Below, piece by piece: positions 38,602-40,458 of a stretch of 40,458 nucleotides of DNA. The DNA comes from Bacteroidota bacterium. GTDB taxonomy: Bacteria; Bacteroidota; Ignavibacteria; Kapaibacteriales; UBA2268. Each line of letters opens with the position of its first letter. Position 1 is the first letter of the stretch. The notes under the pieces are model-generated. The model was given only the letters and a program-made list of their open reading frames with translations. It did not search any database and had not been told where the DNA came from. A program made the translations under genes and the position numbers. Location of the stretch: the NCBI GenBank assembly GCA_009777815.1, contig WRLB01000007.1, positions 1-40,458 on the forward strand, given 5' to 3'.

Positions 38602-39633
38602 CTATTTCTTTTTATAGGACACATCTTGTTCGTACATATCGTCAGGGGTAAGAGGACGTATAATACGGGCAGCTTTTTTGCCATCTACGATACCTGGTCG
38701 GGCGGCGAGTTTCCGTTTTCCTGCGATAACTATTTCTATTTCTTGGTCTATTCGCCTATCGGTTTTGAGGATATCGCCTTCTTTTAGGTCCATTAGTTCG
38801 GTCACGGTGATAGCCGTTTTGGCTAATTCGGCTATTACTTGCAAATACGTAGTAGATATTTGCTGATTGACTGTCATAATGTTTTCTTTAATTTTCTTTT
38901 TACTTTGCGGATGAGCCGCTGTGGTAACTTGTTGTCTATTTAATTTAGCGAGTATCTCTTCTAAAGCGAAGGTAGGAAAACATAAATTCATTAAAAAAGT
39001 GTGCTGTCCGACATGCACATCAAACGATATTACTATTACTATCTCCGAAGAAGGTGCTATTTGCACAAACTCTGCCTCTTGTTCTAAACGCTGATACTTA
39101 AATCCTATACTATCTGTAATTGAACGCCACGCTGTTTTTAAATCCGTAAACGAATGCTCCATTATAGAACGAATCACCGTCTGCTCTATCGTTGTAATCC
39201 CGCGTGGATTCGGAAGAACGTCCGCATTACCGCCCAACAAACGCTCCACTATCATTAACGCCAACTGAGAACTAATTTCTAATATACCGCTGCCATCCGT
39301 CCCTACAATATCAAATACATACAGACAACTCGGACTAATAACTGACGAAATATACTCCGAATAAAACAACTGGTCAACCTGTATATTACCGATATTTATA
39401 GTCGTCTGCAACCTTGTAACGAGATGATAACTAAACAACTCCGCAAAATTCTCATGTATTGAATGCAGTGTCCTTACTTGATTTTTAGAAATGCGATTCG
39501 GTCTCCTAAAATCGTAGTTATTTATCTCCATTTTAGTATATTTATTAGCGAGGTCATTTATATTTACATTCCCTCTATTTGCTTGCTTGATAAAACTATC
39601 TATTATATTTTGGTCTAAACCTGGTGATGCCAT
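38602..39633 (-). CDS. fliM: Flagellar motor switch protein FliM
   Basis: A 343-residue switch protein. The N-terminus is longer than usual before DFRRPNRISKNQVRTLHSIHENFAELFSYHL, the hallmark entry into the CheC-like middle domain. GSGILEISSQLALMIVERLLGG and IEQTVIRSIMEHSFTDLKTAW follow, and a C-terminal SpoA/FliN-like domain has VTELMDLKEGDILKTDR and a short basic end. It forms the rotor C-ring with FliG and FliN and binds CheY-P. The sequence is less AT-rich than most of the window. No other flagellar gene is adjacent. Convergent with the SMC piece. Confidence 0.93.
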   Translation of the reverse strand: MASPGLDQNIIDSFIKQANRGNVNINDLANKYTKMEINNYDFRRPNRISKNQVRTLHSIHENFAELFSYHLVTRLQTTINIGNIQVDQLFYSEYISSVISPSCLYVFDIVGTDGSGILEISSQLALMIVERLLGGNADVLPNPRGITTIEQTVIRSIMEHSFTDLKTAWRSITDSIGFKYQRLEQEAEFVQIAPSSEIVIVISFDVHVGQHTFLMNLCFPTFALEEILAKLNRQQVTTAAHPQSKKKIKENIMTVNQQISTTYLQVIAELAKTAITVTELMDLKEGDILKTDRRIDQEIEIVIAGKRKLAARPGIVDGKKAARIIRPLTPDDMYEQDVSYKKK

Positions 39634-39663: not shown

Positions 39664-39764
39664 TTTTCAAATATTTTCTTTATTTTTGTAATAGTTTTTT
39701 ATTTTTATTTTTTCATAATGTAATTCTGTTTACACACTTGCAATAGTAAGTGTGTTTTTTTATT
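39664..39764 (+). ncRNA. Putative small RNA unit 1: promoter box plus terminator hairpin
   Basis: TATTTTTG at 39681-39688 is followed about 45 bases later by a perfect hairpin, ACACACTT/AAGTGTGT at 39732-39755 with loop GCAATAGT, and seven T. A transcript of about 70 bases is implied. The unit is repeated next to it with the same order of parts. It could alternatively be a leader, or a transcription-blocking repeat. Its reverse strand overlaps the fliM upstream region. Confidence 0.45.
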
Positions 39765-39863
39765 TAAATATTTTCTTTATTTTTGCAATAGTAGTATTTT
39801 AAATATGCTATTTCATAATTTTTTAACCCCCAACACACCTGCAATCGTAGGTGTGTTTTTTTC
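39765..39863 (+). ncRNA. Putative small RNA unit 2: promoter box plus terminator hairpin
   Basis: TATTTTTG at 39778-39785, then AACACACCT/AGGTGTGTT at 39832-39857 with loop GCAATCGT and a T-run. Compared with unit 1, one T-A pair in the stem is C-G here, a compensatory change that keeps the helix. TTTCATAA is shared between the box and the hairpin. No open frame is present. Confidence 0.45.
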
Positions 39864-39871
39864 ATTCTTAT

Positions 39872-39931
39872 ATGCAACCTTCCCTTCTGTCATGCAACCT
39901 TCCCTTCTGTCATGCAACCTTCCCTTCTGTC
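39872..39931. repeat. Three 20-bp direct tandem repeats
   Basis: The unit CATGCAACCTTCCCTTCTGT occurs three times in a row and runs directly into a REP-like element beginning GTCATGCTGAA. The first copy begins TATGC. Confidence 0.85.
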
Positions 39932-40207
39932 ATGCTGAATTTATTTCAGCATCCCCTTATTTTATTTACTAACTTTTACTCGGATTTACTCATTATTTAC
40001 ATAATTTTACTAACATTTACTCAATTTTTACTCGGATTTACCTGTCATGCTGAACTTGTTTCAGCATCCCCAACTTTTATGCAATCATTTAACACGGGGG
40101 CTTGCCCCCTTGTTAAAAAGACAATCATTTAACACGGGGGCTTGCCCCCGTGATGAATATGCAATATATTTAACAATTATGAGATGCTGAAACGAGTTCA
40201 GCATGAC
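39929..40207. repeat. Mixed block of REP-like elements and GC hairpins
   Basis: REP-like stems lie at 39929-39956, 40043-40071 and 40181-40207. GC hairpins AACACGGGGGC/GCCCCC lie at 40089-40115 (right arm with a mismatch) and 40129-40153; these two also form a direct repeat with a 40-base offset beginning CAATCATTTAACACGG. Between the first two REP elements, TTTACTCGGATTTAC occurs twice and TTTACTAAC twice. Confidence 0.75.
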
Positions 40208-40281
40208 CCTTATAAAAATTGCAATTTTAGTAACGTTTTCTTAATTTATTTAGAGAATTCCCTATTTATCTGTTGTTTAAG

Positions 40282-40458
40282 CAATTATATAATTGAAAAA
40301 CCAATTATATAATTGAAAATTGCATTATAATACGCAATTTCCGATTTATATAATTGAAAATTGCATTATAATATGCAATTTCCGATTTATATAATTGATT
40401 ATTGCATTATAATACGCAATTTCCGATTATATAATTGCTTTTCCGATTATATAATTGC
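40282..40458. repeat. 41-bp palindromic tandem array at the window edge
   Basis: Units begin at 40319, 40360 and 40401 (41, 41 and 40 bases); a fourth, partial unit runs off the window. Each unit has ATTGCATTATAATACGCAAT, an imperfect palindrome, then TTCCGATT and the palindrome-like TATATAATTG. Two copies of the perfect 14-base palindrome CAATTATATAATTG (40282 and 40302) precede the array. Copies differ at a few bases. No gene is seen in it. It is not a CRISPR array: there are no unique spacers. Confidence 0.8.

Follow-up and report, generated by a model that had tools for sequence, protein, structure and literature searches.

Near the right end of a 40,458-nucleotide stretch of DNA from a Bacteroidota genome, two units of about 100 bp follow one another head to tail on the plus strand (39668-39761 and 39765-39862), each running from a promoter through a short body to a terminator hairpin. 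The locus raises the question of what such units are: genes for small RNAs, repeats that multiply without function, or elements that act on the genes beside them. The whole stretch, called the window below, forms contig C7 of an assembly of 1.94 Mb that is 73% complete, and the genome was searched for further units. Judged from these comparisons, we lean towards the view that the window units are small-RNA genes and part of a set of about 100 paralogous mini-genes spread by recombination.

Two promoter-terminator units beside fliM

The preliminary description had reported tandem units of about 100 bp, each with a promoter box and a perfect terminator hairpin, and these are indeed present, with stems of 10-11 bp (Table 1). 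Both units carry the box TATTTTTG, which is of the TAnnTTTG form known for Bacteroidota promoters. No other terminator-like site in the whole 40-kb window has such a box 28-100 nt upstream, and of the three terminator-like sites near the window end, where shuffled sequences average 1.2, two are the hairpins of these units. Both units point away from the flagellar motor switch gene fliM, and the first begins about 35 bases from its start codon.

Table 1. Features of the window and the longest arrays of the second hairpin family (window positions, or contig and positions)
Feature	Position	Strand	Description
fliM, flagellar motor switch gene	38602-39633	-	Pfam FliM, E=1.2e-47
Unit a promoter	39668-39688	+	CAAATATTTTCTTTATTTTTG; box TATTTTTG at 39681-39688; Bacteroidota TAnnTTTG type
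Unit a body	39689-39731	+	43 nt, AT-rich, without a frame
Unit a predicted RNA	about 39696-39761	+	start position predicted from the box
Unit a terminator	39732-39761	+	hairpin ACACACTTGC-AATA-GTAAGTGTGT (39732-39755), then T-run
Unit b promoter	39765-39785	+	TAAATATTTTCTTTATTTTTG; box TATTTTTG at 39778-39785
Unit b body	39786-39831	+	46 nt, AT-rich, without a frame; predicted 5' stem-loop (TAGTATTT...AAATATGCTA region); fold z -2.18
Unit b terminator	39832-39862	+	hairpin AACACACCTGC-AATC-GTAGGTGTGTT (39832-39857), then T-run
F2 array, nine units	C8:16030-16931
F2 array, eight units	C33:7791-8612
F2 array, seven units	C17:2010-2762
F2 array, seven units	C9:19596-20247

The window hairpin recurs only within units of the same order

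A search of the 1.94 Mb for the window hairpin (family F1) returned nine copies, two on C7, four on C43, two on C60 and one on C118. All nine belong to units in which the TATTTTTG box lies 51-72 nt upstream of the hairpin, the stem is intact and a T-run follows; since the hairpin is confined to these units within the 1.94 Mb, it is not a general-purpose terminator. The genome copies were inspected for broken stems, and the small-RNA idea survives this check: across the six distinct hairpins, 60 of 60 stem cells are paired (100%). The stem alignment holds changes on both sides at two pairs and on one side at another, and its covariation score was matched by 14 of 500 shuffles and by 0 slid versions. 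The T-A to C-G change between the stems of units a and b falls at pair 8-19 of this alignment. A further element of the window units proved less general than first described: TTTCATAA, found at 39711 in unit a and 39811 in unit b and taken to be constant, recurs in full in only one other copy, on C60; C118 retains its CATAA part, and the four C43 copies lack it.

The four C43 units occupy the gaps between flgD, a small flagellar ORF and flgE, and are oriented against these genes. C118 carries a gene that is fliL by position, has no Pfam match and shares 28% identity with the gene that directly precedes fliM in a relative (G002); C118 and C7 therefore probably border one and the same gap. Because the fliL-like gene and fliM are nearly adjacent in relatives, the units and the palindromes around them appear to have been inserted in the lineage of the source genome. 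A second fliM, 76% identical to the first, lies on C26 (24114-25270) beside a HinP1I-type restriction gene, and a promoter with a one-off, different hairpin (AAATGATGGC-TTTG-GCTATCATTT) occupies the same divergent position there as the window units; this gene either is a paralogue or sits on a contig that derives from a related strain. Several palindromic intergenic repeat families crowd gaps that also hold F1 units (20-bp CAATTATATAATTG arrays, GTCATGCTGAAC...TTTCAGCAT palindromes and CACGGGGGCTTGCCCCCGTG; window 39880-40458, C43:1-190 and 2154-2430, C118:1-200), and contigs end inside these repeats.

A second hairpin family forms arrays across the genome

Weak matches of the full-unit F1 model elsewhere in the genome led to a second family (F2), which shares this anatomy but has its own hairpin, AACAGCATGGC-TTCG-GTTATGCTGTT (RNA form AACAGCA..GC-UUCG-G...UGCUGUU). 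A model of the F2 unit has 102 matches in the genome, 94 of them at E<=0.001, and the hairpin pattern occurs 90 times against 0 for its reversed control. The units stand mostly in 18 tandem arrays (a count tallied by hand from the match lists) of 2-9 units each at about 100-bp spacing, with every unit of an array on one strand. The box TATTTTTG was present in the 77 extracted F2 units, and 97.9% of stem cells are paired. This hairpin too, being located mostly in arrays, is ruled out as a general-purpose terminator. A background check on 300 kb of the genome, from contigs chosen outside the known arrays and not meant as an estimate of density, covered 109 terminator-like sites and showed no tandem units. 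The reading of the window as tandemly duplicated mini-genes of promoter, short body and terminator without a frame thus gained about 100 further examples, in a census built from genome searches and examined stretches: every further copy has the same order, a box and an intact stem.

A single unit at C1:10244-10339 combines a similar promoter with another terminator, GCCACTACC-TTCG-GGTAGTGGC, and there may thus be additional hairpin families. One F2 array, at C9:9210-10357, immediately precedes rpsS and an rplV-like frame; those on its upstream side do not look ribosomal, and the usual order of the ribosomal operon may therefore be broken there.

The F2 arrays are located between ordinary genes, and their positions bear on whether they act in cis, as promoter and terminator arrays that insulate a following gene or set its expression by read-through. 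As a cis-acting element would, many stand immediately in front of a gene of the same orientation (tatD, rpsS, nuoA, glycogen phosphorylase and an HlyD-type gene), which has its own promoter after the final terminator. Against this, about five arrays (C15, C37, C60, C65 and C67) run towards the 3' end of a convergent gene, and the units of the flagellar loci point against the flagellar genes. These two arrangements make a shared cis role unlikely, and we give this explanation little weight.

Constant ends flank dissimilar but structured bodies

Mean identity among F2 units was 93% in the promoter and 91% in the hairpin, and fell to 53% in the body, against 51% for shuffled sequence. F1 promoters are 92% identical (nine units), and over both families the means were 92-93% for promoters, 82-91% for hairpins and 53-56% for bodies (51-53% shuffled). 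Wobbles and mismatches in the stems comprise 173 G.U cells, 0 A.C cells and 16 others. Because every G.U of the transcribed strand corresponds to an A.C mismatch on the opposite one, this asymmetry points to the transcribed RNA as the molecule that folds. It likewise bears on whether the units are REP- or MITE-type palindromic repeats, whose hairpin would matter as DNA and whose resemblance to a promoter would be incidental. REP-like palindromes do adjoin the F1 units, and the units recall such elements in being short, palindromic, intergenic and present many times in one genome; however, the hairpin is not symmetrical at the DNA level, the box keeps to a narrow range of distances from it, and the T-run lies on the same strand. 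Unlike REPs, REPINs or MITEs, each unit has a promoter first and then a terminator specific to the RNA strand, always in this order, and neither conserved element ends nor a transposase was seen. This reading is already contradicted, and we regard it as highly improbable.

Although they differ in sequence, the bodies fold more stably than their own shuffles (mean z -0.92 for 77 F2 bodies and -1.42 for nine F1 bodies). For 69 non-redundant bodies the mean z was -0.93, compared with -0.09 for 120 leaders that follow the same box elsewhere in the genome (p = 2.6e-6), where, by sequence, that element stands before ordinary genes. The effect is moderate, with 16-23% of bodies below p=0.05. The body had been described as poorly conserved and the hairpin itself as perhaps the functional part; bodies that are more structured than other leaders of the genome cannot be dismissed in this way, and the hairpin is most simply a terminator. 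Many F2 bodies begin with a short AT-rich stem-loop, and just downstream of the box certain starting sequences recur (TGGTGA in 15 of 77, TAATAG in 11 of 77). No common 5' seed was seen in the bodies.

The longest closed frame in the units is 16 codons, and in 71 of the 86 units it is under 10, which rules them out as coding sequences. The predicted RNAs are about 54-103 nt long, with a median of 71 nt. By sequence, the units thus present the features of small-RNA genes: a promoter of their own, an intrinsic terminator and no protein-coding frame.

Bodies recur between arrays and with different hairpin variants

Only 22 of 3655 body pairs are clearly alike; they form 10 groups, one or two of which rest on low-complexity stretches and may be due to chance, and leave 58 singletons. 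The matching pairs mostly join different arrays (17 of 22). The bodies at C17:2058 and C37:13583 are nearly identical on different contigs, and the units of C5 have only the first half of the body in common with C65:7405. At C8:16276 and C8:16702 nearly identical bodies are followed by different hairpin variants, a pattern suggesting that units have traded entire hairpins. If the constant promoter and hairpin segments served as sites of recombination, both the growth and the shuffling of the arrays would be accounted for. For the window, the paired difference between the stems of units a and b stands as described; its interpretation as stepwise compensation need not apply, given that F2 hairpin variants have been swapped on near-identical bodies.

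Such exchange also fits the main rival to the small-RNA interpretation, namely that these are neutral or selfish repeats, functionless promoter-terminator modules whose number grows through unequal crossing-over and gene conversion. Recombination would then homogenise the conserved ends and could not do so for non-homologous bodies, and terminators would be kept only because read-through harms neighbouring genes. The swapping of modules between units, the other palindromic repeats that fill the same gaps, and the insertion between the fliL-like gene and fliM all suit this explanation. By itself, however, it leaves the intact promoter boxes in nearly all units unexplained, as well as the stabler folding of dissimilar bodies relative to other leaders. 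We consider neutral or selfish multiplication a real possibility, though not the probable one.

The set is confined to one genome in the searches made

A search with the F1 model found the family absent from 99 relatives, and the exact F1 pattern is absent from GTDB species contigs. The F2 hairpin pattern was absent from 197 relatives, and the F2 unit model had no match in 59. Arrays with other hairpins were not found in about 600 kb sampled from six related genomes; the detector used, which recovered 8 and 6 pairs in two known arrays, has a threshold that misses the diverged pair of the window, so this survey is not exhaustive. The exact hairpin patterns gave no match in viral contigs, and one F2 array gave none in plasmids or phages, and on these searches an origin from a virus or plasmid was rejected. 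A known RNA family was likewise ruled out: at the Rfam gathering score, the window and 15 unit loci yielded no small-RNA family and only tRNAs. All the relatives searched belong to different genera, and the arrays might therefore also occur in a close congener. Confinement to one genome, which also counts in favour of the neutral or selfish explanation, fits recent spread of that kind as well as it fits function.

Discussion

In the small-RNA interpretation that we favour, the housekeeping RNA polymerase would start at the TAnnTTTG promoter that each unit possesses and stop at the hairpin. The resulting RNA would begin with a variable 5' part, folded in most cases, and end in a constant terminator hairpin and its U-tail. 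The approximately 100 paralogous mini-genes, with two main hairpin families in arrays and single units across the genome, would have spread through recombination at their repeated promoters and hairpins, swapping body and hairpin modules. A genome this rich in intergenic palindromic repeats may, on the other hand, simply accumulate repeats.

Tandem small-RNA genes with individual promoters and multicopy small RNAs of Bacteroidota are already known. NsiR1 of Nostoc sp. PCC 7120 is a small RNA of about 60 nt encoded in 12 tandem copies with individual promoters, some of them diverged, seven identical and one antisense to a neighbouring gene (PMC9045159; Ionescu et al, 2010). The units described here resemble it in standing as tandem copies, each with its own promoter, in arrays of 2-9; they differ in phylum and promoter type, in forming about 18 F2 arrays plus the F1 loci with about 100 units where NsiR1 is one array, and in having bodies that are mostly unlike each other, so that the high body similarity of sibling RNAs of the NsiR1 type is missing. 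The tandem siblings OmrA/OmrB, PrrF1/F2, AbcR1/2 and csRNAs number 2-6 copies (reviewed in PMC4211561). OmrA/B share with our units the plan of tandemly duplicated small genes with conserved ends and a divergent middle, whereas here the units are more than ten times as many genome-wide and nearly the whole body has diverged.

The small RNAs FopS and GibS of Bacteroides thetaiotaomicron are multicopy, are transcribed from sigma-ABfr promoters and are bound by the RRM protein RbpB; FopS, which has 14 members with a common 5' seed and is not described as tandem, consists of a single-stranded 5' part and a rho-independent terminator hairpin (PMC11697453). The promoter type and the layout with a terminator are the same in our units. 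FopS members share the R1 seed, whereas the 5' parts here have neither a common seed nor an Rfam match, and with a seed lacking, unlike in FopS or OmrA/B, a common target is unlikely. Our best guess, on the model of FopS and NsiR1, is that the variable 5' part may act as a base-pairing or protein-binding regulator. The source genome also encodes an RRM-domain protein with an RGG-like tail (C45:2162-2368), similar in layout to Bacteroidota RNA-binding proteins, which could conceivably be a partner, as RbpB is for FopS (PMC11697453). A single F2-like unit (E 0.012) lies 3.5 kb from this gene.

Compared with the open-access literature, the number, dispersal and body divergence of the units set them apart: the tandem or multicopy small-RNA families that we came across there range from 2 to 14 copies, and their bodies or seeds are mostly conserved. 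More speculatively, and at odds we would call rather poor, the set could be a cassette-like system that generates new small RNAs, in which constant promoter and terminator modules flank exchangeable bodies and arrays grow and swap by recombination, giving a renewed library of about 100 structured RNAs. If the units are selfish, they would represent a class of repeat in which every copy is a complete transcription unit. The small-RNA biology of this lineage is almost unstudied, and a genome with about 100 units of constant ends and shuffled, structured middles would be well suited to studying how small-RNA genes originate and diversify.
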